Shown one piece after another: positions 2,734-19,253 of a stretch of 64,000 nucleotides of DNA. Both the position numbers and the translations under genes were made by a program. The number at the start of each line of letters is the position of its first letter. Positions within the stretch are counted from its first letter, which is position 1. A model generated the notes under the pieces. The model had not been told where the DNA came from. It did no database searches and saw only the letters and a program-made list of their open reading frames with translations. This DNA is from Gelidibacter salicanalis (GTDB lineage: Bacteria > Bacteroidota > Bacteroidia > Flavobacteriales > Flavobacteriaceae), in the NCBI RefSeq assembly GCF_016469035.1, contig NZ_JAEHJZ010000036.1:72475-136474 (forward strand), written 5' to 3'.

Positions 2734-3462
2734 TTAAGACAAAACCAGCATCAAGAATGCAGCTAAAGAAGCACCTGCAATAGGTCCTAAAACAGGAATC
2801 CATGAATAAGTCCAGTCACTGGAAGCTTTATTTTGGATGGGTAAGATGGCATGCATAATTCTTGGACCCAAGTCACGAGCGGGATTGATGGCATAGCCCG
2901 TTGTACCACCTAATGACAAACCAATTGACCACACCACCAATGCTACAGGCAAAGCACCTAAAGACCCCAGTCCAATAACAGTTTCCGACTCTGCAATTGA
3001 CGCATCGGTAAAATAAAGAACTGAAAATATCAATACAAAAGTACCAACGCCCTCACTTAGAAAATTTGAAAACACATTTCTAATAGCTGGCGCAGTGCAG
3101 AATACCGCTTTTTTGGCCTGTGGATCTTCTGTGGCCATAAAATGATGTCTATAGACCAACCAGACGGTTCCGGAGCCCATCATGGCGCCAAGCATTTGAG
3201 CCAACACATAGGTAGGAACATCTTCCCATGGAAATATACCTGCAACTGCCAGACCTATACTTACGGCGGGGTTTAAATGGGCTCCACTGTGAGGTGATGC
3301 CACCACAACGGCCACATAAACCGCCAATGCCCATCCAGTGGTTATAACAATCCACCCACCGTTGTTTCCGATTGTTTTAGTTAACACAACATTTGCAACG
3401 ACGCCCCCTCCCAAAAGGATTAATAAAGCGGTTCCTATAATTTCTGATATAAATGGTGTCAT
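2734..3462 (-). CDS. glpF: Glycerol uptake facilitator (aquaglyceroporin, MIP family)
   Basis: This is an inner-membrane channel for passive glycerol entry. The 242-residue protein has the MIP duplication, with NPA boxes at HLNPAVSIG (about residues 62-70) and at INPARDLGPR (about residue 194). The aspartate right after the second NPAR is typical of glycerol-conducting members rather than strict water channels. Six hydrophobic segments are visible. It is the last gene of the run glpD-glpK-glpF, 94 bases after glpK, so glycerol that enters is phosphorylated at once. The overlapping frame inside the gene on the same strand is a shadow. Confidence 0.95.
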   Translation of the reverse strand: MTPFISEIIGTALLILLGGGVVANVVLTKTIGNNGGWIVITTGWALAVYVAVVVASPHSGAHLNPAVSIGLAVAGIFPWEDVPTYVLAQMLGAMMGSGTVWLVYRHHFMATEDPQAKKAVFCTAPAIRNVFSNFLSEGVGTFVLIFSVLYFTDASIAESETVIGLGSLGALPVALVVWSIGLSLGGTTGYAINPARDLGPRIMHAILPIQNKASSDWTYSWIPVLGPIAGASLAAFLMLVLS

Positions 3463-3556
3463 TCTTTATGTTACTTAGTATTGATTATTAATGTCCATCA
3501 CGGGAAAGTTGTTTTTTGATTAAAAGAATCATCAATTTCCCAACTAACAATTTAGG

Positions 3557-5053
3557 TTATTTTTCCTTCGTCCAATATTCCAAAGCATCAATGGCCCGAT
3601 ACCAGCCCTTGATATCTTTCTCTATGTCATCTCTCTTTTCTTTAGGTTTAAAACGTTGGTCGGTCTGCCAAATTTGTTGAATTTCTTCCGGGTTCTCCCA
3701 ATAACCTACGGCCAATCCAGCTAAAAACGCCGCCCCCATGGCTGTGGTTTCGACAATTTTTGGACGGACAGTTTCTGTATTAAGTACATCGGCCTGAAAC
3801 TGCATCAACATATCATTGATGGTTGCACCACCATCTACCCGAAGCTCCTTTATGGAAATTCCTGAATCTGCTTCCATAGCTTTTAGGATGTCCATAACTT
3901 GATAGGCAATAGATTCCAACGCCGCACGTGCAATATGTGCATCTGTACTGCCTCTGGTCAAGCCAAAAATTGTTCCCTGGGCGTGTTGGTTCCAATGTGG
4001 TGCACCAAGACCGGCAAAAGCAGGAACAAAATACACGCCCTCTGAGCTTTCAACTGAACTTGCCAATTTTTCAACATCAGAAGAAGTCCTGATGATTTTC
4101 AGACTATCACGAAGCCATTGTACCACGGCACCAGCAATAAATATACTGCCTTCAAAGGCATATGTGGTTTTATCATTAATTTTCCATGCTACAGTTGTCA
4201 AGAGATTGTTCTTGGATACGACTGGTTTATCGCCAATATTCATGAGCATAAAACAACCCGTGCCGTAAGTATTCTTCACCATTCCAGGTTTAGTACACAT
4301 TTGACCAAATAAAGCTGATTGTTGGTCTCCTGCAATTCCTGCTATCGGAATTTTCGCATCATAAAATGTAGAATTGGTATGTCCATAAACTTCACTGGAT
4401 GCCTTTACCTCAGGCAACATACTTCTTGGAACGCTCAACAGTTCCAACAGTTCATCATCCCAGTCCATAGTATTAATATTGAAAAGCATTGTTCTGGATG
4501 CATTGGTAACGTCCGTAATGTGCTTTTCTCCCTTGGTAAAATTCCATACCAACCAAGAATCAATGGTTCCTAAAATGAGATCTCCCGCTTCCGCACTTTC
4601 CCTTGCACCTTTCACATTATCCAAGATCCACTTCACTTTTGTACCAGAAAAATAGGAATCAATAACAAGCCCCGTCTTTTCTCTAATGAGATCGTTCTTA
4701 CCTTGTTTCTTCAGATCATCGCAATAACCGGAGGTTCTTTTATCCTGCCAAACGATAGCATTATATATAGGTTTTCCAGTTTTTTTATTCCAAACCACAA
4801 CGGTCTCACGCTGATTGGTTATTCCGATGGCCGCAATATTCTCTATGTTTAAACCTTTTTTTGCAATTGCTTCTGCCGCAACGCCTGTTTGTGTGGACCA
4901 AATTTCCAATGGATCATGTTCTACCCAACCTGGCTTGGGAAAATATTGGGTAAATTCCTTTTGAGCAATTGAAATTATCGCACCCTTTTTATTAAAGATG
5001 ATAGCTCTGGAGCTTGTTGTACCTTGGTCTAAAGCAAGTATGTATTCCGCCAT
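3557..5053 (-). CDS. glpK: Glycerol kinase
   Basis: Phosphorylates glycerol to sn-glycerol 3-phosphate with ATP in the cytoplasm. The 498-residue length is standard for the family. It opens with the FGGY-family phosphate-binding loop [12 protein letters not shown], has the [10 protein letters not shown] adenosine-side motif near the middle, and the C-terminal half contains [18 protein letters not shown] and [13 protein letters not shown]. It lies between glpD (65 bases upstream) and glpF (94 bases downstream), all on the minus strand, forming a complete glycerol entry module. Control by the DeoR/GlpR-type regulator at 17441 is inferred from family knowledge. Confidence 0.97.
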
Positions 5054-5118
5054 ATTAAATTGTTTTTAAGTTTATAAATAGATTTAGAACATTCCCAAAT
5101 ACTTAAGAATGATATCAA

Positions 5119-6681
5119 CTATAGTATATATTGATTTGCCAATTGCCTAAATTCTTCTATCTGTGCTTCCTTCCATCCGTCAGCTTTACCTAAATACTGT
5201 GATAAAACTTCAGCCACATAGGGCGCGACCTCTTGGGCTGCCTTAGCATCCAAAAATAAAATTCGTACGCGTCGTGCTAGGACATCTTCAACCGTTCGCG
5301 CCATTTCATTAGTAACGGCCCAGACCACCTCCGCCTTTAAAAATTCTAACCGTGGGTGTAATTTTTCACCCAATTCTGGAGATGTTGATATCAGTTGTTC
5401 AATGGCTTTTTGATCAGTACCATATATATAAAGATGGTCTGAATCATCAGCTGAACCATCGGCTCCGTGAATAGCCAGATGTTTCGTCCGACAATCTTTA
5501 TGGGGTAATTTTCCCAATGATATTGCCTTATTCATGGTGTCTTGCGCCATTCTTCTATACGTAGTCCACTTACCGCCAGTGATCGTCATCAACCCAGAGT
5601 CGGATACTATGACCTTGTGGCTCCTTGAAATTTCCTTTGTTTTTTCTGAAGCGTCCTTTGGAGCTGCCAAGGGACGCAATCCGGCAAATATGCTCAGGAC
5701 ATCACTTCTTGAAACCGTTTTATTCAAATATGCATTCGCCGTTTCCAAAATAAAATCAATCTCCTTTTCCAAGGGCTTTGGCTCCAAACTGTGACTGTCC
5801 AATAAGGTATCTGTCGTTCCCACCACGACGCGATTATGCCAAGGCACTAAAAAAAGCACCCGACCATCGGTCGTTTTAGGGATCATAATGGCATCTTCAC
5901 CAGGCAAAAAAGAGCGATCCAACACCAAATGAATGCCTTGGCTTGGCCTGACCGTATTTTTCGCATCTGATTTATCCATCTGAAGGATCTCATCGGTAAA
6001 TACGCCAGTGGCATTAATGACCACTTTAGCATTGAGTTGATAATCAACACCACCATCTGCATCTCTTGCCATGACCCCACTCACTTTTCCCTCTTTGTTT
6101 TTTAGCAATTTGCAAACCTTAAAATGATTTAAAGCCGTCGCCCCCTGCTCAATGCAGGTTTGGGCAATGTTGACTGCCAATCGGGCATCGTCAAATTGAC
6201 CATCGTGGTAGACCACCCCGCCTTTAAGATGATTGGTTTGGATGGTAGAAAGCCGTTTGGAAGTTTTCTTTTTTGAAATACGGATGGAGGAGCCAAAACT
6301 CAACTTACCCGCTAACAAATCATAAATTTTCAGACCTACCGTGTAAAGAATGGTGTCCCACCAATTATAGTTTGGAATAATAAACGACTGATTTTTAACG
6401 AGGTGAGATGCGTTTTTGAGCATCAAACCTCTTTCATACAGAGCTTCTTTGACCAAGTCAATATTACCTTGAGCCAAATAACGTACACCACCATGAACCA
6501 GTTTCGTACTTCTGCTGGATGTACCTTTTGCAAAATCGGATTGCTCCAAGAGAAGTGTTTTAAACCCTCTAGTCGCACTGTCCAATGCTACGCCCAAACC
6601 CGTAGCACCACCACCTACGATAATAACATCCCAATCTTGGTTGTCAACTATTTGTTTTAATAATGTTTCTCTACTGAACAA
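5119..6681 (-). CDS. glpD: FAD-dependent glycerol-3-phosphate dehydrogenase
   Basis: Oxidises sn-glycerol 3-phosphate to dihydroxyacetone phosphate at the membrane, passing electrons to quinone (GlpD) or, in GlpO relatives, to oxygen. The 520-residue protein begins with a clear FAD Rossmann motif, VIIVGGGATGLGVALD (about residues 20-35), followed by the substrate-region motif STKLVHGGVRYL. A C-terminal GlpD-type domain covers roughly the last 120 residues. It follows the HAD phosphatase gene after a 172-base gap, so it may have its own promoter or be read through from the SusC operon. I chose the ATG at 6681, which gives a family-typical N-terminus. Confidence 0.95.
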   Translation of the reverse strand: MFSRETLLKQIVDNQDWDVIIVGGGATGLGVALDSATRGFKTLLLEQSDFAKGTSSRSTKLVHGGVRYLAQGNIDLVKEALYERGLMLKNASHLVKNQSFIIPNYNWWDTILYTVGLKIYDLLAGKLSFGSSIRISKKKTSKRLSTIQTNHLKGGVVYHDGQFDDARLAVNIAQTCIEQGATALNHFKVCKLLKNKEGKVSGVMARDADGGVDYQLNAKVVINATGVFTDEILQMDKSDAKNTVRPSQGIHLVLDRSFLPGEDAIMIPKTTDGRVLFLVPWHNRVVVGTTDTLLDSHSLEPKPLEKEIDFILETANAYLNKTVSRSDVLSIFAGLRPLAAPKDASEKTKEISRSHKVIVSDSGLMTITGGKWTTYRRMAQDTMNKAISLGKLPHKDCRTKHLAIHGADGSADDSDHLYIYGTDQKAIEQLISTSPELGEKLHPRLEFLKAEVVWAVTNEMARTVEDVLARRVRILFLDAKAAQEVAPYVAEVLSQYLGKADGWKEAQIEEFRQLANQYIL

Positions 6682-6853
6682 TTTGCTTGTATTTAGTACT
6701 ATTACTTTCTTTTCATTTAAAAATACGGGTTCCTAAAGACCATTTTTTTTCTAAAAATCTCATTTTCATGACTTTTGATCCTTACTTAAAATCATATAAG
6801 AGTCAGAATTTTTATTTTAAAAAATGTCCATAGAATTCTTTTATTGTGAAGTT

Positions 6854-7804
6854 TTAGGGCTTAACTTTTGGATTACTCTTATTAGGCTTTATACGTCTTT
6901 CTTGGGATATATATTCATAATCACCTGTTGGAATGTCATTGCTGTACACCGTAAGTCCTCCGTACTTGTCCCAATATTTCTTAACAGTATATCCATCCAT
7001 GGCTCCTGCATGTTCCCCTTTTTCAACTTTACTGTCATCAGGATTTACAATCATTTTAATTCCAACGGATTCGTTCATCATTTCTAGATCGCCCCTGCTA
7101 TTTCCTGCAACAAATAAAGGACGGGACTTTATAACGGTTTGTATTGCTTCTGCCTTACCGTAATCCTGTGGAATTGGATAGACCATGTTATCGGTTATCT
7201 TACCATGGCTAATAACAGATTTAACACCTATGATTCGATTAACAGGTATTCCTAAATTTTCACTGACAAATTTTTGATATAAAACTTCTGGAGATGCGGT
7301 TAATACCCAAATTTCAAACCCATATGTTTCTAGATTAGCTAAAAGCTCACGCATTTCAGGATAGAATTTTGTCTGATACATTTCATGAAAATAATAATTG
7401 CCAACGGCTTCCATTTCATCTGGAGATAAGCCAGAAAAGAACTTAATTCGATTGGTGACATAATTCGTACCCACATTGTCACCTTCCGATAAATTTTTTA
7501 TAATCGCCATTTTAGCTTTTGATATACTATCATTTCCATTGGCATATCTGTCTTTAGCAAAGGCGTACATGGCTTCATCAGCTAAATAATGGGGGGCTTG
7601 TCCAAACAATGTACCGTCACAATCCAACACAGCCACTTTGCGCTCCTTGATAATTAAGGTGGAATTTAAGAAGCTTTTAATTTTTTGGTTGGTATCTAAT
7701 GGCCAACTATCAATTGGTTTATAAGATTGTGTATATGCGGATACGAAACATAATAAGAAAAATGGAAGCAGTAATAATTTGTTACACTTGGTCAAAAATT
7801 TCAT
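6854..7804 (-). CDS. Secreted HAD-family phosphatase
   Basis: A 316-residue protein with a signal peptide (hydrophobic residues 10-25, likely cut after AYTQ). The HAD motif I is DCDGTLF at about residue 61 (nucleophile D61, acid/base D63). Motif II is VLTAS, and motif IV is GNSRGDLEMM. The fold resembles phosphoserine or phosphorylcholine phosphatase relatives. It is 9 bases after the glycerophosphodiester phosphodiesterase gene, so a role in dephosphorylating a released product such as glycerol 3-phosphate or phosphocholine in the periplasm is likely. The exact substrate cannot be read from the sequence. Confidence 0.82.
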   Translation of the reverse strand: MKFLTKCNKLLLLPFFLLCFVSAYTQSYKPIDSWPLDTNQKIKSFLNSTLIIKERKVAVLDCDGTLFGQAPHYLADEAMYAFAKDRYANGNDSISKAKMAIIKNLSEGDNVGTNYVTNRIKFFSGLSPDEMEAVGNYYFHEMYQTKFYPEMRELLANLETYGFEIWVLTASPEVLYQKFVSENLGIPVNRIIGVKSVISHGKITDNMVYPIPQDYGKAEAIQTVIKSRPLFVAGNSRGDLEMMNESVGIKMIVNPDDSKVEKGEHAGAMDGYTVKKYWDKYGGLTVYSNDIPTGDYEYISQERRIKPNKSNPKVKP

Positions 7805-7813
7805 AATGACAGT

Positions 7814-8608
7814 TTAGTTTTTGTTTAAAATTTTAAAAAGCAATTCTGGTTCGTTGGTGGTAATATAATCTACTTTGTTGTCCAACAAAGTCCTCATATC
7901 TTCTTCTTTATTTACCGTCCAATAGTTGACCGTCATGCCCAAATCATGAGCTTCCTTTATCCAATGGGGATTTTTTAAGAAGGTTTTAAAATTATAATCT
8001 ATTCCTGTGTAACCCACCAAAAAAGCTTCGGCCGGGGTTTTATCACCATTAAGATATGCTACCTTAGCTTTTGGGTCTAGTTTTTTTATCAATTGACCAG
8101 CTTCATAGCTAAAGCAAATATATTCTACCATTGACTGTGCGTTTAAACTTTTCACCATATCCACAGCCATTTCTGTTAATTTCAATGTTCTTTCCAAACC
8201 AGCAGGGGCCTTTTTAATTTCCAAGATCAATTTGGTCTTTTTTTGTTTAAGGCCTTCCTCCAAATATGCTTTAACGGTAGGTATCTTCTCACCATTGGTA
8301 TGTTCCTTAACCAATAGCTCGCTATAAGTGGAGGTTTCAATATCAATCCCCATAAAGTCCTTATCGTGATTTACAACCATTATATCATCTTTTGAAAGAT
8401 GGATATCAAATTCAGATCCATAACACCCTAGCGATATAGCTTTTTTAAGGGAAGCAATTGAGTTTTCTGGTAAGCCTGAGGCCTTCCATGCTCCCCTATG
8501 GGCAATAACGGGATTATTAACACTTTTGCAACTGGCAAGCATCACTAAGAAAACGAGTAATAATGCCATTCTTGAATAGGTTTTAAAAGATAAAATAGTT
8601 CTTGTCAT
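7814..8608 (-). CDS. Glycerophosphodiester phosphodiesterase, lipoprotein
   Basis: Splits glycerophosphodiesters (for example glycerophosphocholine or glycerophosphoethanolamine) into sn-glycerol 3-phosphate and an alcohol. Family motifs are clear: HRGAW with PENS a few residues on (HR at residues 37-38), the EFDIHLSKD metal-binding pair, and the second histidine in VVNHDKDF. The 264-residue protein starts with a lipoprotein signal ending in LASC (C27), so it is probably anchored in a membrane facing the periplasm or surface. It sits between a secreted metallophosphoesterase and a secreted HAD phosphatase and upstream of glpDKF, which explains where the glycerol 3-phosphate goes. Confidence 0.95.
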   Translation of the reverse strand: MTRTILSFKTYSRMALLLVFLVMLASCKSVNNPVIAHRGAWKASGLPENSIASLKKAISLGCYGSEFDIHLSKDDIMVVNHDKDFMGIDIETSTYSELLVKEHTNGEKIPTVKAYLEEGLKQKKTKLILEIKKAPAGLERTLKLTEMAVDMVKSLNAQSMVEYICFSYEAGQLIKKLDPKAKVAYLNGDKTPAEAFLVGYTGIDYNFKTFLKNPHWIKEAHDLGMTVNYWTVNKEEDMRTLLDNKVDYITTNEPELLFKILNKN

Positions 8609-8693
8609 AGGTGTTTTATTAAAATTATTTTGATGCCAGTAATAGAGCCAATCAAGATCTAAAAATGCTCACAAACAAGGATAACTTATATAA

Positions 8694-10673
8694 TTAGATC
8701 ATATCATAAGTAAAAGCTTTTGGTCGAACCATGCTTTCACGAAATACATTGCCAAAACGGTCTGTTACTTTAATCTCCAATGTAGTATTGGGTGCCGAAG
8801 CGGTGACCTTAAATATATGTGGGGTTTTATTAGTTACGAAAGCTTCGGTTGGAACTGCTCCAGCATTTAAACGCAGCGCATCATAGGAAATAATATGTAA
8901 TGGATCTTTTGCATTTATCCTTTTAGTTGACAGTTCTATCCCATTTTCTTTAACTTCAATTTTCCAATTCTTTTCAAAGGCCCAAACGTTAATCAAAACT
9001 TCATTGTTATTATTTGGCTGTCCATAAGATTCCACATAGGGGGCCAAATCAGCATCTGTAGCTTTAGGCGCAAAATTAGCAGCGGTAATGTGTACAGAAT
9101 TCAAATCATAAGTTCGAAATTGATAATCCTCATTATGTCCAATTCCCTTATAGATCCAATCTAGATTTTTTCCATTCATTCTCCAAACACCATAACCTCC
9201 GGGACTACCGTCTTTACAGATATGATTGTCGGCATAACCGTTTTTACCTGTCCACCACCAAGTCGCACATATAGCCCCTGTATTGTGCTCCATTAAATTT
9301 GACGCTTCCTCTACTCTATAATTTACATGGACATGGCCGGTCAATACATGGACTGTAGAGAAATCATGTAAGGCGTCAATCAAAGCACTTCCATTGTCCA
9401 GGTTAACTTTATTAATCTGATTACCATTTACATCAAGGGTTGGCTTACTATATAATGGGACATGCATCGCCACTACAACAGGGGTACCTTTGTCTGTTAT
9501 GGCTGCAAGATCTTTTTTTAACCATTTGATCTGTTCAGAATCAATGGAATAATTATAATTACGACTGCCAACAGTTCCTGGGGAGCCCCCCGTATTTATA
9601 TATTCAACATTATCCAGCACAACATAATGGATCTTACCTAAATTGAACGAATAATACGTTGGCCCAAGAACTTCCCTGTATTCATTTTCAGCTTCCCAAT
9701 CATTGGCAAAATAAGGGTCATAATCATGGTTCCCTATTAAATTAAAAACAGGACAATTGAGCATATTCATATACGGTACATACTCTTTCAGGGCAAAATT
9801 ATTATTGTACCAATAGGTATCCCAAGTCATATCACCTAAGGTCAGTACATACACTTTGGTGCCATCTGCGGAATATTTATCAATACTTGCATTGACATCT
9901 GGAAGAACCTTACCGGTATATTGATCAATATCATTGTTGCGATTGGCCAAGTGCCAATCAGCCATAGGTATAACCACGTGCTTCTCATTATCGACCTTAA
10001 TCAAAGAAAAATCTTTTTGTTCAACGGTGCTTACGCTATTACTTAAGCGCTTAAAGAATTGGGGTATATTTCCAACGGTGGTTGCCTCATAGTTACCAGG
10101 AATTGAAATAAATACAAATCCCGTTTTTTTAAGGGAAGGAAGATAATAGATCCCTTTATCATCTGTGACCGTAACTTCATACCCATCTGAAACAACTACC
10201 CCTGCAATACCTTCTCCATCAGAGAATACCATCCCCTTTACCGTCATGCCACCAATATCAGGAATATTAGTATCTGCAATCAGGTTAAACAGGGTGGATC
10301 CTAACACTAAGCTCAAGGTGCCCCGAGTGACTGAAATCTTATAATTTCCGGTAGTAAATGTTGCCGGTAAAATGAAACTTACATCTTTATCAGAAACGGC
10401 CGAGGCATCACTGGTAAAGGTTATGCTAGCGTCTGAAATTGAGACAAATTTAAAAGTATCTACTATTTTAAAGCCTCTTCCACTAAAAATTACAGCACCT
10501 CCTTCAACGACATCAATATTTGAGGGAATTGAAACTTCTGAAATATTCAGACCAATATTTTGGTCAATGTCATCAACCCCATTTTTGCTACAGTTGGTAA
10601 ATGCCATACCACTTATTCCAGCAAATGTAGTGAGGCTGCCTACCTTAAGAAATTTTCTTCTACTATTCTCCAT
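8694..10673 (-). CDS. Secreted calcineurin-type metallophosphoesterase
   Basis: A 659-residue protein with three parts. Residues 1-30 form an export signal with a twin-arginine-like SRRKFLK and a possible lipobox ending at C28. Residues 45-225 hold an IPT/TIG-like and a carboxypeptidase-regulatory-like beta domain. The calcineurin metallophosphatase domain follows, with DWH (239-241), GD (280-281), GNHD (314-317), a later AMHVP and TGHVH, and a C-terminal beta domain. The motif set is complete, so it is probably active on a phosphomonoester or diester. It is 16 bases after the BACON lipoprotein gene within the SusC operon. Export of the folded metal enzyme by Tat is inferred from the RR motif. 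Confidence 0.9.
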   Translation of the reverse strand: MENSRRKFLKVGSLTTFAGISGMAFTNCSKNGVDDIDQNIGLNISEVSIPSNIDVVEGGAVIFSGRGFKIVDTFKFVSISDASITFTSDASAVSDKDVSFILPATFTTGNYKISVTRGTLSLVLGSTLFNLIADTNIPDIGGMTVKGMVFSDGEGIAGVVVSDGYEVTVTDDKGIYYLPSLKKTGFVFISIPGNYEATTVGNIPQFFKRLSNSVSTVEQKDFSLIKVDNEKHVVIPMADWHLANRNNDIDQYTGKVLPDVNASIDKYSADGTKVYVLTLGDMTWDTYWYNNNFALKEYVPYMNMLNCPVFNLIGNHDYDPYFANDWEAENEYREVLGPTYYSFNLGKIHYVVLDNVEYINTGGSPGTVGSRNYNYSIDSEQIKWLKKDLAAITDKGTPVVVAMHVPLYSKPTLDVNGNQINKVNLDNGSALIDALHDFSTVHVLTGHVHVNYRVEEASNLMEHNTGAICATWWWTGKNGYADNHICKDGSPGGYGVWRMNGKNLDWIYKGIGHNEDYQFRTYDLNSVHITAANFAPKATDADLAPYVESYGQPNNNNEVLINVWAFEKNWKIEVKENGIELSTKRINAKDPLHIISYDALRLNAGAVPTEAFVTNKTPHIFKVTASAPNTTLEIKVTDRFGNVFRESMVRPKAFTYDMI

Positions 10674-10689
10674 TTATGATATCTTTTTG

Positions 10690-11922
10690 TTATTCTATGA
10701 TTTTCACTTTAATATCATCAAGAAAAATACGATTCTTACCTTTTCCAACTCCCACAAGATTAAAATCACCTCCCAGAAACCTCAATTGGGTTTCAGCAGT
10801 GGCACCCATAATTATAAACTCATAAGTGCTTTCTTCCTTTAACCAAATGTCGGTACTATCAGGATCTTCATCATAATCTGGCCAATTATCAACTGTAAAT
10901 GAGTTAACGCTCGTAGTCCCAGGCCCTACCACACTTACCTTCAAATTATTGTCGTCTTCTGTACCACCCTTTGTTTTATAAGGAACCGCTTTAAAAGTGA
11001 CCTTAACATTGGTAGGTTCTGTCAGGGCTGAGAGAGCCGGTGAAATTAAATCGCCGCCATAACCTGTTTTACCTAATTTAAGAAACCCAGTACGTGCATA
11101 TACTACTTTTTGATTGCCCGCATCTTCACTGACAGTACTGTTCCATCCTCTAGCCATCTCATCAGCTGTCCAAGAATCCATTCTAGTTTCTCCTGAAGTC
11201 GTATAAAATATGGTACTACCGTAGTTTAACCAATCAAAATTTTCTTCTAATATCACATTTCCAGAAGATTGAGTAATCAAAACCTCTTTAGTCAAATCAG
11301 GGTAGCCTGCAGAACTGATAATTAATTTAGTGCTACGTTCATCACCTCTGTTTTTGGAAGCAAGAAGTACGATTTTAGTTTCAGAGACTTCAACTTCGCT
11401 CAACCAATCACCGTTTTCTAATGTATAATTCCAATCAACGTTTGCTTTTACAGGAATAGCGACATTACCCTCTGCCGAAGGAATTGAAATGCCATCCGCA
11501 GCATCTTGTAGAATAATAAAAGGAACATTTGCCTCTTGATCTACACGAAAGAGAATAGGCTGTTCTTTTCCGTCTACTATGAAAGCAAAATTCACACTTC
11601 GTGCATCAAAAGTTGTATTTTCCTTAACTGTAAATTTAAAAATCCCATCATCCTTACCTTCTGAAGGAAACACCTTTACCCAATCTACATTTTCTTGTGC
11701 CACAATTTGCCAAGCACCGTTGGAACGTACAGTATAAGATTTAGAAACTCCTTTAATGTCTGTTACAATTCCAGTTGGATTTTCTTCGATATTGAAATAC
11801 GATTCGCTTTCAATCACGTCATCATCGTCACTACAAGATATAAATACAAGAGCGCATAGACATAAGAGAGATGCAAATACCAGTCTTACTGATTTTATAT
11901 TTAAAATAATTTTTGTGTTCAT
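10690..11922 (-). CDS. BACON-domain surface lipoprotein in SusCD operon
   Basis: A 410-residue lipoprotein with signal peptide and lipobox ending FISC, followed by an Asp-rich stretch (SDDDD) like Bacteroidota surface-export signals. Two BACON-like beta domains are visible at about residues 40-130 and 130-220, with the typical pattern of a W near 'NGAWQI' and 'VDWNYTL'. The C-terminal half looks like a beta-sandwich ligand-binding region. It occupies the position of SusE/SusF-type binding proteins directly behind SusD. It probably helps to capture the substrate at the cell surface; the ligand is not known. Confidence 0.8.
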   Translation of the reverse strand: MNTKIILNIKSVRLVFASLLCLCALVFISCSDDDDVIESESYFNIEENPTGIVTDIKGVSKSYTVRSNGAWQIVAQENVDWVKVFPSEGKDDGIFKFTVKENTTFDARSVNFAFIVDGKEQPILFRVDQEANVPFIILQDAADGISIPSAEGNVAIPVKANVDWNYTLENGDWLSEVEVSETKIVLLASKNRGDERSTKLIISSAGYPDLTKEVLITQSSGNVILEENFDWLNYGSTIFYTTSGETRMDSWTADEMARGWNSTVSEDAGNQKVVYARTGFLKLGKTGYGGDLISPALSALTEPTNVKVTFKAVPYKTKGGTEDDNNLKVSVVGPGTTSVNSFTVDNWPDYDEDPDSTDIWLKEESTYEFIIMGATAETQLRFLGGDFNLVGVGKGKNRIFLDDIKVKIIE

Positions 11923-11946
11923 AATATTTAGATTTTTTCACAATTT

Positions 11947-13512
11947 TTAATTTCCTCCAGAAATAGCTTGTTTACTCCACCATACAGGTGTTTTCATAGT
12001 ATTTGGCCCCATTCTATCAATTGCCTCTTGAGCGTTTTTGGAATTTGTTGCCAAAGTGGTTGTAGGATAGGCAAATCTTGTAGGCAAAATGTAATCATTG
12101 AATATGGCACCATCTCCAACGGTTAAGACAGGATAGCCCGTACGACGATATTCATGATAGGCTTCCATACCAATCCAAAATAAGGCAAGATATTTTTGGT
12201 TGCCTATTAATTCTGCGGTATTGGTCGCCTTGTCCCATGATGCCAAATCAGATTGTAATAACTCAGTAATGTCACTATCCGTAATGGTCACAGGAGTTTC
12301 ACTGAACTGACCGTATTCTGCCCATTTTTGAACGGAAGCTGTCACTGCATTTTCATAATATTGTTTTGCTTCTGTAGGACCACCTGGGATCAAACCTTTT
12401 AAGGATGCTTCAGCCAATATAAATTGCACCTCGGCATAATCCATAAAAGTCGCAGGGGCATTTACTCTAGCTAGTACTGCTGTATTTAACCATGAACTCC
12501 CACGGTCAGCAGCACTTTGGTTTTGCTCAGAGACCCCAGCAATGGTTCCTTTCCATATGTTATTGGGATTGGTACTTAGACTTGGGTTTTTCTTTCCTAT
12601 GATTGGAAGGCGAGGATCAACATAGGTTTGCTCATCATTGATATCTTTTATGACGGTCATTTTTATAAGTTGTTCCGTTAGTTTTCTGCCTGAACTGGTC
12701 AGCGTACCTTCATTGGTATCCGCAAATTGACTCCTATAAGGGTCATTGCCCGAGAATACAACGGTTGCATTATCTGCATTGGATGTAAAAATGGGATATA
12801 AGGAAGGGTTATTTAATATTTCACTTATTTTTGTTCCTGCATTCATTTCAGGACGACCACTCACCCGCATCAGCAATCGTAAGTATAACGAGTTATTAAA
12901 TTTTCGCCACTTGTCCATTGATCCCCCATACATACCATCCAATGATGGTTTTTCAAATACGGGATTAGTGGCATAAATAGCATTCGCAGTATTTAGATCC
13001 TCAAACATTTGTTCATAAACTTCTTTTTGAGATTCAAACTTTGGCTTTGTTGTGCCATTTGCCTTTCTAGCATTAAAAGCCTCTGAGTAAGGGATATCGC
13101 CAAACATATCAGTAAGGTTGGACATGTACAGTACCTTTAAAGTCATTGCTATGGCCTCTAAAGAGCGGTCCTCTTGCTCCACACTCAAATCATACATATG
13201 GGTGACATTGTTACCATAGCGACTATAGGCGTTCCATACACTTTGCCAATTGGCATCACTGATAAAATACCGATGTTCTTGGCGTGTAGTCCCTCCTGTG
13301 AAAGCCGTAAACTGCACTAATTCGTTGTTCCAATACCATGTATAATTCAGCCAAAAATTGCCGCCATTGTATAATAATGGCTCGAACATACCGCTGGCTT
13401 TAATTTGACCAACATTGGTGGTGTTAGGGTTCGTATTTGTTTCTTCAAAATCGGTGGTGCAAGATATCATCACTGTTAGAAATCCAATTATTATAATTTT
13501 TATTTTGTGCAT
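11947..13512 (-). CDS. SusD/RagB-type outer-membrane lipoprotein
   Basis: Substrate-binding lid of a SusC transporter. I place the start at the ATG at 13512 rather than at 13560. The later start gives a clean lipoprotein signal (MHKIKIIIIGFLTVMISC), and the earlier one would overlap the end of SusC. The protein is then about 521 residues, with SusD-like features: an early NPNTTN motif, TPR-like helical repeats and a C-terminal region rich in Gly, Asn and Trp. The pattern suits the SusD-like_2 subgroup. It is 19 bases after SusC. Confidence 0.92.
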   Translation of the reverse strand: MHKIKIIIIGFLTVMISCTTDFEETNTNPNTTNVGQIKASGMFEPLLYNGGNFWLNYTWYWNNELVQFTAFTGGTTRQEHRYFISDANWQSVWNAYSRYGNNVTHMYDLSVEQEDRSLEAIAMTLKVLYMSNLTDMFGDIPYSEAFNARKANGTTKPKFESQKEVYEQMFEDLNTANAIYATNPVFEKPSLDGMYGGSMDKWRKFNNSLYLRLLMRVSGRPEMNAGTKISEILNNPSLYPIFTSNADNATVVFSGNDPYRSQFADTNEGTLTSSGRKLTEQLIKMTVIKDINDEQTYVDPRLPIIGKKNPSLSTNPNNIWKGTIAGVSEQNQSAADRGSSWLNTAVLARVNAPATFMDYAEVQFILAEASLKGLIPGGPTEAKQYYENAVTASVQKWAEYGQFSETPVTITDSDITELLQSDLASWDKATNTAELIGNQKYLALFWIGMEAYHEYRRTGYPVLTVGDGAIFNDYILPTRFAYPTTTLATNSKNAQEAIDRMGPNTMKTPVWWSKQAISGGN

Positions 13513-13531
13513 ATCACTATTTTTAAAATGA

Positions 13532-16500
13532 TTAGAATGAAAATTTGACGTCAAAGCCATAGGATCTTGTCATAGGGAAAGACATGGATTCAATCCCTTT
13601 ATAAATATCAGAACCATTGAGCATTCCTGTTTCAGGATCGTATTGCGGAAAATCAGTAATTGTAAATACATTTGTAGCGTATACGCCAAAAGTCAAATCC
13701 GTGAGAAAACCAGTTTTTTCCATTATTGCCTGTGGCATTCTGTAATTAAGACGCAATTCCTTTAATTTCAAATAAGAGTTGCTAAAGGTGTTGGATTCGG
13801 CATTATTACGGTTCCAGACATACGAATTATAATAGGTTTGAATATCCTTGGTAACATTTGTATTCTTTGTATAGGTTACTGTGCCATCAGTACTTTCTAC
13901 GACATTGACACCCTCATGAACAAGGCCATCATTCCTACCCTCCAAAGAGTTTGTAAGTTTTCCCTGGTAAGAAAGAGCAAAGTTGGTTACTGAAAATGTA
14001 TTTCCGCCCACTTGGCCTGAAAAGGTAGCTGATAAGGTCAGATTCTTGTATCTAAAGCGCTGTACCATACCGCCTCTCCAATCAGGGTTTACGCTACCCA
14101 GTTTTCGGTTTGGCGATTCATCAAGAATTGGATAACCATCAGCGTTCACCAAATGCATTCCTGAAGCATCTATCTCTGTCCCGTTTTCGTCAGTATAGGT
14201 AGAACCTTCCGGAGCTCTTTGAAAACCACGGCCATAAAGCTGATGCATTTCCTGACCTACATATGAATAGACGTAAACCCTTCCTCCAATGGTTGTTCCC
14301 ATATCCGTTTGGAGTGGTTCTTCCGGATCCCAACCTTCTTGGAGGCTGACTAACTTATTTTTATTCTTTGACCAATTAACATCAAATGACCATTCAAAAT
14401 TTGGAGTCCGAATAGGCACCAAATTGAGGGAGACCTCTAAACCTTCATTAGTAATTTCGCCTGCATTGATTTTTAAACCAGTAGCACCAGTAATTTGATC
14501 AACATCTACTGAAACAATTTGATTTGTAGTGGATGAATAATATTTGGTCACATCAAAACCAATACGATTTTTGAAAAGTTTTGCCTCTATACCAACTTCC
14601 CAACTCTCTACGTTTTCAGGTTGGATAAGTGGGTCAGGGATTGTCCCTGGCAAGGTATAGCCTCCGGGATATGAAGAGTTTCCGTAATATTGATCTAACG
14701 AATAAGGTGAAGTGTCATTACCTACATTAGCCCAAGATAAACGTAATTTTGTAAAATCTACCCAAGGCACATTCTCTTTAAAATCAAAGATTTCATTTGC
14801 CAAAATACTTGCAGCAACCGATGGGTAAAAGAAAGACCAATTTCCTTTAGAAAGCGTACTTGACCAATCATTACGTCCTGTAATATCCAAATAATAGGTA
14901 TCATCCCAACTTAAAGATGCCAAGCCATAAATACTATTGACTATTTTGTTACTTCTGTAATTATAAGGATCAGGAATTACACCAGTTGGAAGATTGGTGG
15001 TATGGTATATATTTTCTTCCCCAATTTGACTCAATGTTATTTTACTATTGTGGTACTCATTTATTCTATTATTTGCACCTACCATTGTCAATAGACCAAA
15101 TCGTCCATCTACAAAATCATTATTGGTGTAACGCAACATGACGGAATTGTTGTTCTCAATAACCCGAACAGTCTGTTCACGATAAAAACCATTCTGATAA
15201 TCAGCTGTGTAAAAAGGTCTTTGTTGTGTTCTAAATTCGTCTGACCAGTCCAATCCTGAGCCCACTTGCAGCTCAAGGCCTTTCATTAAATCAAAGGTAA
15301 AATCAATATTACCAAAAACCCGATTTTTTTTCTGGGCGTTCAACTCCTCATAAAGTGTGCGATAAGGATTAAAGCCGTTTGTAGAAGGATATACTAATCC
15401 TTGACCATTTTCTCCTTGGGCAAACCAATTGGCATAATTGTATCTTCCTTCAAAATACTCCTCTTTCCATTCATTGATACTATTGACATTAAAACCCCAG
15501 GTTAAAGCATACATTGGATTATTTTCATTGTAACCGCCGCCAGGCATATTATCACTTTCCTTTAGGTAATAATTAATTTTGGCGCTTAACTTTATCTTTT
15601 CAGTTACAGGCGTGTTAAACGATAGAGAAACCGACTTTCTGTTGAATCCGGTATTTGGCAAAATCCAATCATTTTTGAAATCGGTTGCAGAGAAGCGTGT
15701 AGAGGTTCCCTTTCCATTACTTCCGCTTAGGCTTACGGTATTGCTTGTGGTCAGTCCATTTTTAAATAAACCTGTATACCAATCATCCTGATACACAAAA
15801 GGTAATTTTGTAAACTCTCCAGTGTCCCAGTTTTTGGAAGCATATAAATAACGGAGCTTTTCAGGATCAAATTTTTCACCAAAGGTATATCGCGAATAAC
15901 GCCTAGGAACACTCATGCCGTCTTGGGTCATTTCTGGAGTAAGTTCCCACAGTGAAAATTCATTTTCACCTAAGTCCGAGCCATTTCCATACTCTTTTTG
16001 AAAATCAGGAAAATAGCCTGCTCTTTCAAATGTTACCGAAGAGCTAACAGACACTCCCAGACCTTTGTTCTTTTTGCCCGTTTTGGTGGTTATCAAAATA
16101 GCGCCATTGGCCGCTCTTGAACCATACAAGGCTGCTGCTGCAGGACCTTTTAATACAGATACCGAAGCAATATCGTCAGGATTGATATCACTTACTCCAT
16201 TTCCAAAATCAATCGGAGCATCTCCTTGAGCATAATTACTAACACCCCTTGTTGCAGTAGCTCCTGACGTTATAGGAACACCATCAACTACAAATAAGGC
16301 TTCATTATTGCCATAGTTCAAGGATTGATCACCCCGCAGAGTAACCCTAATCGATCCGCTGGGCCCGGAACCTGCCTGATCAAAAGTCAAACCGGCAACC
16401 TTGCCAGACATCCCATTTAACCAATTGCCTGTTACAGATTTCGTTATTTCCTCTCCGTCAACTTTTGATATAGAATACCCTAAAGACTTTTCCTCTCTTG

Positions 16501-16831
16501 AAATATTCAAAGCGGTTACGACCACTTCGTCCAAAGCACTGGTATCCTCTTGCATAACGATCTCTAAAAAAGCGCCAGATCTAGTGACAGCCTCTTGTGT
16601 CACATATCCTATATAGGAAAAAACCAATACCACATCTCCGGTATCGGTTTTTACACTAAACTTTCCATCAAAATCAGTAACAACACCTTTGGTCGTCCCT
16701 TTTACCATAACCGTAGTGCCCGGCAGCGGGCCACCATCTGCATAAACAGTACCTGTTATGCTTTGTGCATGTATATTTGACACCAGTCCAAATAACATCA
16801 ATAAGCTACAAAATTGAGTAATTTTTTTCAT
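13532..16831 (-). CDS. SusC/RagA-type TonB-dependent outer-membrane transporter
   Basis: A 1099-residue outer-membrane transporter. It has a signal peptide (residues 1-23, cut after IHAQ), then a carboxypeptidase-regulatory-like domain starting SITGTVYADGGPLPG, then the TonB-box-like DEVVVTALN, and a plug with VKGPAAAALYGSRAANGAI, which is the signature of the SusC subgroup. A 22-stranded barrel follows, ending in aromatic FDVKFSF. It is the first gene of the operon that also encodes SusD, a BACON lipoprotein and three phosphate-ester hydrolases. That makes a phosphorylated glycerol compound a better guess for its cargo than a glycan. Confidence 0.95.
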   Translation of the reverse strand: MKKITQFCSLLMLFGLVSNIHAQSITGTVYADGGPLPGTTVMVKGTTKGVVTDFDGKFSVKTDTGDVVLVFSYIGYVTQEAVTRSGAFLEIVMQEDTSALDEVVVTALNISREEKSLGYSISKVDGEEITKSVTGNWLNGMSGKVAGLTFDQAGSGPSGSIRVTLRGDQSLNYGNNEALFVVDGVPITSGATATRGVSNYAQGDAPIDFGNGVSDINPDDIASVSVLKGPAAAALYGSRAANGAILITTKTGKKNKGLGVSVSSSVTFERAGYFPDFQKEYGNGSDLGENEFSLWELTPEMTQDGMSVPRRYSRYTFGEKFDPEKLRYLYASKNWDTGEFTKLPFVYQDDWYTGLFKNGLTTSNTVSLSGSNGKGTSTRFSATDFKNDWILPNTGFNRKSVSLSFNTPVTEKIKLSAKINYYLKESDNMPGGGYNENNPMYALTWGFNVNSINEWKEEYFEGRYNYANWFAQGENGQGLVYPSTNGFNPYRTLYEELNAQKKNRVFGNIDFTFDLMKGLELQVGSGLDWSDEFRTQQRPFYTADYQNGFYREQTVRVIENNNSVMLRYTNNDFVDGRFGLLTMVGANNRINEYHNSKITLSQIGEENIYHTTNLPTGVIPDPYNYRSNKIVNSIYGLASLSWDDTYYLDITGRNDWSSTLSKGNWSFFYPSVAASILANEIFDFKENVPWVDFTKLRLSWANVGNDTSPYSLDQYYGNSSYPGGYTLPGTIPDPLIQPENVESWEVGIEAKLFKNRIGFDVTKYYSSTTNQIVSVDVDQITGATGLKINAGEITNEGLEVSLNLVPIRTPNFEWSFDVNWSKNKNKLVSLQEGWDPEEPLQTDMGTTIGGRVYVYSYVGQEMHQLYGRGFQRAPEGSTYTDENGTEIDASGMHLVNADGYPILDESPNRKLGSVNPDWRGGMVQRFRYKNLTLSATFSGQVGGNTFSVTNFALSYQGKLTNSLEGRNDGLVHEGVNVVESTDGTVTYTKNTNVTKDIQTYYNSYVWNRNNAESNTFSNSYLKLKELRLNYRMPQAIMEKTGFLTDLTFGVYATNVFTITDFPQYDPETGMLNGSDIYKGIESMSFPMTRSYGFDVKFSF

Positions 16832-16853
16832 ACGAATTTCATTTTATTAAATT

Positions 16854-16881
16854 CAAAAATAGGTAGTTCAGCTGCCTTCAA
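16854..16881 (-). promoter_or_regulatory. Candidate promoter for the SusC operon
   Basis: On the minus strand, TTG (16881-16879), 17 bases, then TATTTTTG (16861-16854) match the Bacteroidota -33/-7 pattern (TTG, about 17-23 bases, TAnnTTTG). The -7 box is 22 bases before the SusC start codon, so the leader would be short. This is pattern recognition only. Confidence 0.4.
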
Positions 16882-16969
16882 GGTTAAACTAATATTATGC
16901 TTTAAATTGCTGCAGTCTGATTTTAGTACTTTGTGCTTTCCCATAATGATGGTTTTTTTTGATTATATA

Positions 16970-17119
16970 TTAACGTTAAGCGTAAATTTAACGGCTTTCA
17001 AATTATATATCATAATGTTTCACTTTGTTATTTATTACTCAATAATAGACAAAATTTCGTAATCTCGCAAATAAAATGAAACTATTTAAAGCAATATGTA
17101 ATATAACGAACGTTATATT
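16970..17119. promoter_or_regulatory. Inverted repeats in the SusC/DeoR divergent region
   Basis: Two palindromic sites lie in the 609-base divergent region. TTAACGTTAA is at 16970-16979. A perfect 8-base inverted repeat, AATATAAC and GTTATATT with spacer GAAC, is at 17100-17119. Both contain AACGTTA or a close relative, and the second contains AACGAAC, which recalls GlpR half sites of enterobacteria. They are candidate operators for the DeoR-family regulator encoded at 17441. The rest of the region (16882-17440) holds no gene. Confidence 0.35.
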
Positions 17120-17440
17120 TAATTATATTCAGCACTACTTAGGGCTTCAGATGGTACAATCTGCCTAGGATTCTAAATTCCAGATAAAATAATCAGAAGA
17201 CTTCTTTCGCTATTATTAATATTATCATTGCGTTGGTCTTCTTTTTGATCATCGTTTTAATTATTCAAAATTCTCCGAGTCATAGAATTTTGAAACCAAC
17301 ACTACAAATGGATATCCATAAAGAAACCCTTGTTGGGATTTTTTATGGAAACCATTCATTTAATTATATTTGCGAAGGTGATTTGCGAAAATTTTATTAG
17401 AAGCACAGCGATTAAGCTTATAGGAAACTATTTTAAATAA

Positions 17441-18193
17441 ATGAAAAGACATCAAACCATATTAGAAAAATTAGCTAAAGAGAAACATCTTGAAGTATTG
17501 GATCTTTGTGAAATTCTCAATGTTTCAGCGGTAACTATCCGTAAAGATTTAAGATCGCTGGAAGAAAAGGGCTTATTATTCAGAACGCACGGGGGAGCTT
17601 CTTTGGAGAATCCATACATCAATGAAAAGGCGATTGGAGAAAAAGAGAAAATTTCCGTTGAGGAGAAAAACGGTATTGCGGCGTGTGCTGCCCAATTGAT
17701 TGATGAAAATGATTCTATCATGATTGCTTCAGGTACCACGGTACAAGCGCTATCTAAGTTTATCAAACCCAAACACAAACTAACGGTTATAACGTCTTCA
17801 CTTTATGTGGTAATGCATCTCATACACGACAAAAACATTGAAATCCTTCAACTTGGTGGCTATATCAGGCATTCTTCGGGTTCCGTCATAGGATCCTATG
17901 CCGAACATATCTTGAATAATATTTCCTGTAGCAAACTGTTCTTGGGTGTTGATGGGCTAAATTTAGATTTTGGTCTTTCCACAACAAATTTGGAGGAAGC
18001 ACAATTAAACAGAAAAATGCTGGCCTCTGCACAGAAAATTATTGTTTTAGCCGACTCTTCCAAATTCGGAAAAAAGAGCTTTGCTAAAATTTGCGACTTC
18101 GATCAAATTCATGAACTTATCACTGATAAGGGGCTTTCGCAAATTCTTAAGAAAAAGATTGAAGAAAAAGGCATCAAGGTGACTATAGCATAA
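17441..18193 (+). CDS. DeoR/GlpR-family transcriptional regulator
   Basis: A 250-residue regulator. Residues 1-57 form the DeoR winged helix (VLDLCEILNVSAVTIRKDLR then GLLFRTHGGA). The remaining part is the sugar-phosphate-sensing DeoR C-terminal domain, with IASGTTVQAL and a later DSSKFGKKSF. It is transcribed away from the SusC operon, which ends in glpDKF, so it most likely represses that operon and responds to glycerol 3-phosphate or a related phosphate ester. A -7-like TATATTTG is present at 17365-17372, without a convincing -33 partner. GlpR is the best family analogue, but ligand and targets are inference. Confidence 0.9.
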   Translation: MKRHQTILEKLAKEKHLEVLDLCEILNVSAVTIRKDLRSLEEKGLLFRTHGGASLENPYINEKAIGEKEKISVEEKNGIAACAAQLIDENDSIMIASGTTVQALSKFIKPKHKLTVITSSLYVVMHLIHDKNIEILQLGGYIRHSSGSVIGSYAEHILNNISCSKLFLGVDGLNLDFGLSTTNLEEAQLNRKMLASAQKIIVLADSSKFGKKSFAKICDFDQIHELITDKGLSQILKKKIEEKGIKVTIA

Positions 18194-18428: not shown

Positions 18429-19253
18429 ATGAAAATTAAATTAATAGCTTTTTTATTATTTTTTAACTGCATAAATGCATTCGCATCAGAGGTGGACACC
18501 CTAATGGTCGAGAGCAAATCCATGAACAAATTTATTCCTAATATTGTCATCCTGCCAGACAATTATACAACTCAACAAAACGGTTTTTCAGTCGTATACT
18601 TGCTACATGGTGCTGGTGGAGATTATACAGATTGGCTTACAAAGGCTCCAGAACTGAGAGCGTATGCAGACACTTACAACATGATCATTGTTTGTCCTGA
18701 TGGCGGTTCTACAAGTTGGTATTTAGACAGTCCTGTAGACCCAAATATAAAATATGAAACCTATATTTCTAAAGAACTAATCGACAACATCGATAAAAAA
18801 TACAATACTCTTAAAAAAAGTTCGGCAAGGGCCATTACAGGTTTGAGTATGGGTGGGCATGGCGCATTTTACCTTAGTTTCAGACATCAGGATATTTGGG
18901 GCGCAGCAGGGAGCATGAGTGGAGGTTTAGATTTTCGTCCTTTCCCAAACAATTGGGATCTACATAAGCGATTAGGAAATTATTCAGAACACAAAAATAA
19001 CTGGGAAGAAAACACAGTGATGAATATGGTTTATCTGTTGAAAGGGGACAACTTAAAATTAATATTGGATTGTGGTTTTGATGACTTCTTTTACGATGGC
19101 AACAAAAGATTTCACGAGAAATTACTTGAAAGAAATATTCCACATGATTATATTGAACGCCCAGGAAAACATAATTGGAACTACTGGCCAAATTCTTTAA
19201 AATATCAATTGTTGTTCTTCAATGATTTTTTTGAATCTTCAAATTCAGATTAA
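18429..19253 (+). CDS. Secreted alpha/beta-hydrolase esterase (esterase D type)
   Basis: A 274-residue protein with a signal peptide (residues 1-20, AFAS). The alpha/beta hydrolase fold of the esterase D and acetyl-xylan/feruloyl esterase group is shown by YLLHGAGG (oxyanion side, about 58-64), the nucleophile elbow GLSMGG with S140, an acid in LDCGFDDFF and the catalytic histidine in GKHNW. The natural ester is not evident. A -7-like TAATTTTG lies at 18373-18380, about 49 bases before the ATG. It could belong to the neighbouring phosphodiester locus (deacylation of lipids), or be unrelated. Confidence 0.88.
   Translation: MKIKLIAFLLFFNCINAFASEVDTLMVESKSMNKFIPNIVILPDNYTTQQNGFSVVYLLHGAGGDYTDWLTKAPELRAYADTYNMIIVCPDGGSTSWYLDSPVDPNIKYETYISKELIDNIDKKYNTLKKSSARAITGLSMGGHGAFYLSFRHQDIWGAAGSMSGGLDFRPFPNNWDLHKRLGNYSEHKNNWEENTVMNMVYLLKGDNLKLILDCGFDDFFYDGNKRFHEKLLERNIPHDYIERPGKHNWNYWPNSLKYQLLFFNDFFESSNSD

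Follow-up and report, generated by a model that had tools for sequence, protein, structure and literature searches.

Results

The window analysed here is a stretch of 64,000 nucleotides from Gelidibacter salicanalis (contig NZ_JAEHJZ010000036.1), and its positions 2734-18193 hold a locus of ten genes in which a SusC-SusD importer pair, a BACON lipoprotein, a metallophosphoesterase (MPE), a glycerophosphodiester phosphodiesterase (GDPD) and a HAD-type hydrolase stand in one run with the glycerol genes glpD, glpK and glpF (Table 1). Nine genes lie on the minus strand and the tenth, encoding a DeoR-family regulator, diverges from them on the plus strand. An earlier reading of this DNA, made from the letters alone (the sequence-only reading), had proposed this colinear run from SusC to glpF with a divergent regulator, and all ten genes were found as it described them. 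The gaps among the minus-strand genes measure 9 to 172 bp, the widest lying between the HAD gene and glpD, once the start of SusD is moved to Met17 of its open reading frame, where the signal peptide begins (approximately 13512 rather than 13560). A simple scan for terminator-like sites, whose 13 sites overall did not exceed the level in shuffled sequence, placed none on the minus strand in these gaps. The absence of a glycoside hydrolase, also claimed earlier, was borne out among the ten proteins with Pfam and NCBIfam at E<=0.001 (for GlpD, among the best 25 of 43 NCBIfam matches), and no carbohydrate-active enzyme (CAZyme), lyase or sulfatase family was recognised in them by either library. 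GlpD scores 307 bits, under its equivalog cut-off of 360, with its DAO and DAO_C domains present.

Table 1. Features of the locus and its surroundings, in window coordinates
Feature	Position	Strand	Details
SusC/RagA-type TonB-dependent transporter	13532..16831	-	1099 aa; TIGR04056, 614 bits above cut-off
SusD-like_2 surface lipoprotein	11947..13512	-	PF12771; listed open reading frame to 13560, likely start Met17
BACON lipoprotein	10690..11922	-	two BACON stretches and C-terminal beta domain
MPE, exported	8694..10673	-	659 aa; MetallophosN, Metallophos, MetallophosC
GDPD lipoprotein	7814..8608	-	PF03009, 91.7 bits
HAD-IB-type hydrolase, exported	6854..7804	-	PF12710
glpD, aerobic-type glycerol-3-phosphate dehydrogenase	5119..6681	-	PF01266 (DAO) and PF16901 (DAO_C)
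glpK, glycerol kinase	3557..5053	-	TIGR01311, 750 bits above cut-off
glpF, MIP-family glycerol channel	2734..3462	-	PF00230, 132.7 bits
DeoR-family regulator, AgaR-like, divergent	17441..18193	+	PF00455 and PF08220
Candidate operator, DeoR-SusC intergenic	17068..17081	-	13/14 match to TTTCRTTTYRTTTY
PF00756 esterase, exported, downstream of DeoR, locus membership uncertain	18429..19253	+	108.9 bits; signal peptide by eye

The phosphoester hydrolases have intact catalytic features. MPE begins with a twin-arginine lipoprotein signal and a lipobox, recognised by eye, followed by a beta-sandwich, and its metallophosphoesterase motifs are invariant in 27/27 sequences. The best structural match of its model is, by a marginal lead, the glycerophosphodiesterase GpdQ, and the first cut by MPE is probably of the phosphodiesterase type. 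In GDPD, residues H37, R38, E66, D68, H81 and E130, aligned with 3no3, are invariant in three orthologues, and the HRG, ExD, H and E residues, which we take to be catalytic, are intact in alignments that include 3no3 and 7ww4. Since 7ww4 and 7wwc are named beta-1,3(4)-glucanase, a glucanase function was considered for GDPD and rejected: the match is limited to their N-terminal half, and the glucanase is a separate GH16 half, as shown by a fusion protein in the same genome (see below). The DxDGT, T, K and GD motifs of HAD, taken in what we assume to be their usual meaning, are likewise intact. An acidic stretch follows the lipobox cysteine of SusD (CTTDFEE), and SDDDD directly follows the lipobox of the BACON lipoprotein, a probable surface binding protein; GDPD is probably periplasmic, because this acidic export signal is missing. 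Our survey of lipoboxes across loci excluded matches of 100 bits or less (60 or less for GDPD, and hence the Bacteroidales GDPDs) and included some split frames. An enzyme domain in the BACON protein, raised by a match to the NCBIfam nuclease model T9SS_DNase, was rejected, as the structural model of the protein matches BACON and no nuclease is among the 50 matches listed, with the C-terminal part barely tested.

Conservation was assessed in 34 loci with a relative of MPE, which were retrieved by scanning named genomes once, using three MPE orthologues and two short peptide patterns, and whose gene content was read by tblastn. Because only two short patterns were used, more distant MPE loci were missed, and the 34 are not independent, several being close relatives. 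SusC (at least 40% identity) is present in 25 of them, SusD in 23, BACON in 20, HAD in 11 and DeoR in 10, and GDPD in 20, as 11 window-like and 9 longer Bacteroidales forms. A glycerol or glycerol 3-phosphate (G3P) module accompanies 17/34, as GlpD-GlpK-GlpF, GlpD-GlpT or GlpABC-GlpT, so that the linkage of hydrolases, SusCD and glp genes, on whose conservation the sequence-only reading had staked its proposal, is kept in rearranged and functionally equivalent forms. The other 17 have no such module, which we count against that interpretation; nine are shortened by contig ends (L057, L059, L071, L075, L080, L082, L083, L085, L086) and eight are not (L060, L061, L062, L064, L072, L074, L076, L081).

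The arrangements are varied. The G. gilvus locus has the gene order of the window without HAD. In Sinomicrobium, DeoR diverges from glpD-glpK-glpF, which are followed by an extracytoplasmic function (ECF) sigma factor, FecR, SusC, SusD, BACON, MPE and GDPD, and in Arenibacter (L054, L055, L058) glpD-glpK-glpF precede SusC. Metagenome-assembled genomes (MAGs) of Bacteroidales, some cut at contig ends, have DeoR divergent from glpD-GlpT-HAD-GDPD-MPE-SusC-SusD-BACON, with a sulfatase between glpD and GlpT in four; such a sulfatase-family protein with a CSPSR motif lies at 4467-6233 in L065, 4459-6237 in L068 and 4402-6213 in L073. Three Bacteroidales MAGs (L068, L077, L084; MPE region approximately 9950-11900) have MPE split over two open frames, assembly error and decay not being told apart. 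A Porphyromonadaceae MAG (L079) carries glpA-glpB-glpC-GlpT-GDPD-MPE with a different SusC-SusD, and L078 retains GlpT, MPE, SusC, SusD and the BACON protein. In Polaribacter filamentus, on a contig equated by coordinates, glpD directly precedes GlpT, followed by an IS982 element and HAD, with SusCD-MPE-GDPD on the other strand; IS elements interrupt this Polaribacter version (L056). Close relatives of the window locus are few: MPE orthologues (E<=1e-60) occur in 2/395 genomes of the order sample and 1/395 of the phylum sample, the window's own included in each, and 26 of 149 family genomes have an MPE match (E<=0.001), near full length and above 60% identity only in the window genome and one other (G094). 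A close SusC (90%) is present in 1/9 other genomes of the genus, and a plasmid scan returned three distant relatives. From the conservation counts, the grouping of SusCD, phosphoesterases and glycerol genes is not due to chance, and recurrence of this partnership in several forms in distant relatives suggests a dedicated use of glycerol-phosphate compounds. The central claim of a SusCD locus built on phosphoesterases and tied to glycerol catabolism is thus supported.

Gene trees bear on how the partnership arose. In a 28-row glpK tree, other Gelidibacter clusters join the window and G. gilvus (100/97), the three Arenibacter rows form a separate group (100/99), and Sinomicrobium is placed with L155-L157, clusters in which no SusCD lies in the stretch read (100/99); this tree, which includes Sinomicrobium and omits L161, agrees with an earlier glpK tree that omitted Sinomicrobium. 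In the SusC tree, also of 28 rows, SusC of Arenibacter sp. P308M17 falls with the Gelidibacter, Wenyingzhuangia and Ochrovirga proteins (100/99) rather than with the other Arenibacter. The two trees are discordant, which implies different histories for the importer and the catabolic cassette, and their topologies suggest that the two probably came together on more than one occasion, although the same trees would result if the SusC next to a long-standing cassette, or the cassette next to a long-standing SusC, had been exchanged. These data speak to the proposal that a SusCD-phosphoesterase operon lies by chance beside an ordinary glycerol operon. The family does have DeoR-glpDKF clusters with no SusCD in the part that was read (L151, L155, L156, L157), and the 172-bp gap between HAD and glpD would fit such a boundary. 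However, the linkage recurs rearranged and replaced and appears phylogenetically re-formed, and DeoR stands at the SusC end with the glp genes at the far end, and we regard chance adjacency as very improbable.

A GlpT-like gene (E<=1e-40) was found in 3/16 genomes searched and in 0/6 genomes with a GlpKF-type locus, other G3P importers (Ugp type) not having been looked for. In these GlpKF hosts, GlpK or GlpD could act only after a phosphatase or some other importer. The sequence-only reading had assigned this step to HAD, which would release glycerol for GlpF, and this part of its scheme is doubtful: HAD is absent from 4/5 named GlpKF-type loci (L053, L055, L058, L063; present in L054), that of G. 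gilvus (L048/L053) among them, and 10/11 HAD-bearing loci among the 34 have GlpT. On the other side, HAD is paired with GlpF in the window and in L149, where a 62% identical HAD directly follows glpF. HAD is mostly found in GlpT-type loci, where G3P needs no phosphatase, and we therefore consider it an optional part of the locus. PafA, encoded elsewhere in the window genome (NF042991, 848 bits, cut-off 650), could substitute at the phosphatase step; F. johnsoniae PafA is described as a phosphate-insensitive phosphomonoesterase required for growth on phosphorylated carbohydrates (PMC8812569).

Both ECF and FecR occur in 7/34 MPE loci. Neither was found among the ten locus genes or in window positions 1-24000 by tblastn with three ECF and three FecR references. 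SusC is 1189-1212 aa long in all seven ECF-FecR loci and 1097-1110 aa in 13 others with a full-length SusC, and the window protein lacks the approximately 90-110 extra residues of the ECF-linked orthologues. Among the 25 loci with a related SusC, which are related and not independent, ECF-FecR accompanies 2/16 with a glycerol module and 5/9 without (L060, L061, L062, L064, L081); the remaining four of the nine (L057, L059, L071, L083) end upstream at a contig end. L112, outside the 34, likewise has ECF-FecR and no glycerol genes. At the thresholds used, a GlpD match is missing in the genomes of L059, L062 and L081, and a GlpK match in those of L059, L060, L062, L064 and L081. Other genomes of the genus have paralogous ECF-SusC-SusD-MPE-GDPD loci (L049, 2206-10489; L050, 2279-10552; L051, 10146-18425), and in the 20 kb around these there was no match to GlpD, GlpK, GlpF, GlpT or DeoR. 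One importer-MPE core may therefore serve phosphorus acquisition in some hosts and carbon acquisition in others.

Such loci favour an alternative in which the locus frees phosphate and the glp genes merely dispose of leftover glycerol. Its nearest counterpart is PUSI of F. johnsoniae, a system of PusCD1, an ECF sigma factor and a pair of periplasmic phosphodiesterases (PF00149, PF16670), which is described as induced by phosphate depletion (PMC8115612) and which the locus resembles; the six ECF-FecR loci without glycerol genes and the paralogous loci of the genus are in agreement with this. However, the window locus has a DeoR-family regulator in place of ECF-FecR, its SusD belongs to PF12771 and PusD1 to PF07980/PF14322, and a complete catabolic module would be expensive to carry as an accessory, but such modules recur in alternative forms. 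We consider phosphate scavenging an unlikely purpose of the window locus.

The regulator is a divergent member of the DeoR family, as had been claimed, although the GlpR type suggested for it did not hold: it is nearest to AgaR (NF040755; 231 bits, cut-off 260), the GlpR-type models score 111/331 and 178/300 bits, and the protein reaches none of the NCBIfam equivalog cut-offs. The DeoR-SusC intergenic region has a 13/14 match to TTTCRTTTYRTTTY, which we take to be the AgaR-type consensus, equalled in 19/300 shuffles; G. gilvus also has 13/14 (23/300), three sister clusters (L105-L107) have 14/14 before glpD (0/300 each), and for the remaining eight regions the number of shuffles that equal the match ranges from 9 to 268 of 300. 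Judged from these matches, an AgaR-type site as operator of the regulator is suggestive only. A GlpR-type palindrome in the same intergenic region, a perfect inverted repeat at 17100-17119 (9-bp arms, 2-bp centre), was rejected as evidence for an operator, not being found in the G. gilvus region.

Glycerol genes are present in three SusCD loci of this genome. The second (L105; contig C112, 5001-25000; cluster 2884-18123) has DeoR divergent from glpD-glpK-glpF that are 82-90% identical to those of the window, followed by a regulator with Y_Y_Y and GerE domains, SusC, SusD (PF07980/PF14322), a GDPD-GH16 fusion that resembles 7ww4 over its whole length, and a protein of the endonuclease/exonuclease/phosphatase (EEP) family. 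Its substrate could plausibly be a phosphoglycerol-substituted beta-1,3-glucan. Two further Gelidibacter genomes (L106, L107) have similar clusters, as do, whole or in part, L142, L144, L146 and L148 of 20 family glp regions, which were chosen for high glpK identity, so that the proportion of them with SusCD cannot be taken as a frequency. The third locus (L108; contig C541, 15001-35000; 4914-19586) runs SusC-SusD-melibiase-like hydrolase-sodium:solute symporter-glpK-GlpD-like gene and includes an FG-GAP/UnbV protein; a galactosyl-glycerol such as floridoside is our guess at its substrate. Near the window locus, a PF00756 esterase directly follows the regulator, with 78% identity in G. gilvus and no counterpart found in the other 33 of the 34 loci, and a transposase (PF13701) lies at 19965-21260.

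Discussion

We consider it likely that the locus is a substrate-specific SusCD-type import system for a glycerophosphate-containing phosphodiester, used as a source of carbon (and phosphorus). This proposal builds on gene content, intact motifs, conservation, three alternative G3P modules and discordant trees, from which protein localisation, the direction of the cuts, substrate and inducer are predicted. The substrate would be bound at the surface by the BACON and SusD lipoproteins and receive a first, probably phosphodiesterase, cut from the surface MPE lipoprotein, and the product would be imported through SusC. Periplasmic GDPD would then release G3P, and a phosphatase, either local HAD or PafA, may yield glycerol and phosphate in this host, for which the search at E<=1e-40 revealed no GlpT-like gene. 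Glycerol would be converted to dihydroxyacetone phosphate via GlpF, GlpK and GlpD, and the divergent DeoR/AgaR-type regulator may make expression depend on a phosphorylated intermediate inside the cell, for instance G3P.

As to the substrate, we lean weakly towards a polymer (poly-glycerol phosphate, teichoic-acid-like): molecules able to pass porins, such as small diesters, would hardly seem to call for a SusCD pair, a binding lipoprotein and a surface enzyme. A glycerol-phosphate polymer of other bacteria, namely wall teichoic acid or a similar capsule, would be attacked by MPE as endo- and GDPD as exo-enzyme, as by PhoD and GlpQ in Bacillus. We put this forward tentatively, as GlpQ cleaves glycerophosphocholine and similar diesters as well, no enzyme for a linkage unit or glucosyl substituent was recognised in the locus, and PhoD is not the best match of MPE. 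Phospholipid, or its deacylated head-group diesters, would be a substrate of a different kind, and one we put forward just as tentatively: no phospholipase was recognised among the shared proteins identified (not every open reading frame was scanned), the PF00756 esterase is conserved in G. gilvus only, and glycerophosphodiesters are of a size that porins admit.

SusCD importers are generally regarded as specific for glycans, and the MPE-SusCD loci suggest a second, parallel class adapted to glycerophosphate substrates, whose importer core may be rewired to serve either carbon or phosphorus acquisition. In its broadest form, this would be a class found across the phylum and dedicated to polymers of glycerol phosphate, for example the teichoic acids of other bacteria, whose shared surface MPE-SusCD core feeds carbon catabolism when joined to DeoR with GlpFKD, GlpT-GlpD or GlpABC-GlpT, and phosphate scavenging when joined to ECF-FecR without glp genes. 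We think this generalisation possible but would not expect it to hold. The parallel class, whether or not so broad, would allow Bacteroidota to reuse wall polymers of Gram-positive bacteria or lipids of membranes, and the recurrence of GlpFK, GlpT and GlpABC modules points to G3P or glycerol as a product that can be tested for.

The glp regulon of E. coli comprises GlpF, GlpK, GlpD, GlpT, GlpQ and GlpR, with a periplasmic GDPD and a DeoR-family repressor. The window locus shares with it G3P/glycerol catabolism, a periplasmic GDPD and a DeoR-family regulator, but adds an outer-membrane SusCD importer, a surface MPE and a binding lipoprotein. It resembles polysaccharide utilization loci in its adjacent SusC and SusD homologues (TIGR04056, PF12771), binding lipoprotein, lipoprotein hydrolases, dedicated regulator and catabolic genes, whereas phosphoesterases replace the glycoside hydrolase, lyase or sulfatase, and no CAZyme was recognised with Pfam or NCBIfam. 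The main texts of a survey of such loci in Flavobacteriia (PMC6298971) and of PMC11345257 do not contain the word phosphodiesterase. GlpQ and PhoD of Bacillus subtilis, similarly a GDPD and a phosphodiesterase of metallophosphoesterase fold, are described as acting on glycerophosphate polymers in turnover of the cell's own wall under phosphate starvation, in contrast to a locus tied to import and glycerol catabolism (PMC7086022). PafA-dependent growth of F. johnsoniae is comparable in that an organophosphate serves a member of the Bacteroidota as carbon source, but PafA is a stand-alone phosphomonoesterase, and phosphoglycerol is reported as not usable by F. johnsoniae (PMC8812569).

The closest known systems are PUS (PUSI to PUSIV), described as phosphate-regulated SusCD loci of Flavobacterium with phosphodiesterases and phosphomonoesterases and without CAZymes (PMC8115612). 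The window locus likewise has a SusCD-like pair and, in the same run, MPE, GDPD and HAD, and PUSI too combines PF00149 with a second phosphodiesterase; it differs in its DeoR linkage, in its SusD family, in having glpD-glpK-glpF and in the absence of the ECF sigma factor of PUSI. We found no glp genes named for PUS, and the main text of that report does not contain the word 'glycerol' (PMC8115612). No account of a SusCD locus with a glycerol-catabolic module turned up in the open-access literature, which is no proof of absence. The locus had been proposed as an undescribed system; given PUS, SusCD-phosphoesterase loci as such were already known in Flavobacterium (PMC8115612), and only the glycerol-catabolic, DeoR-linked form looks new. 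The locus is a real variant of the SusCD-phosphoesterase kind that recurs across genomes and is set apart by glycerol/G3P catabolism as its output.

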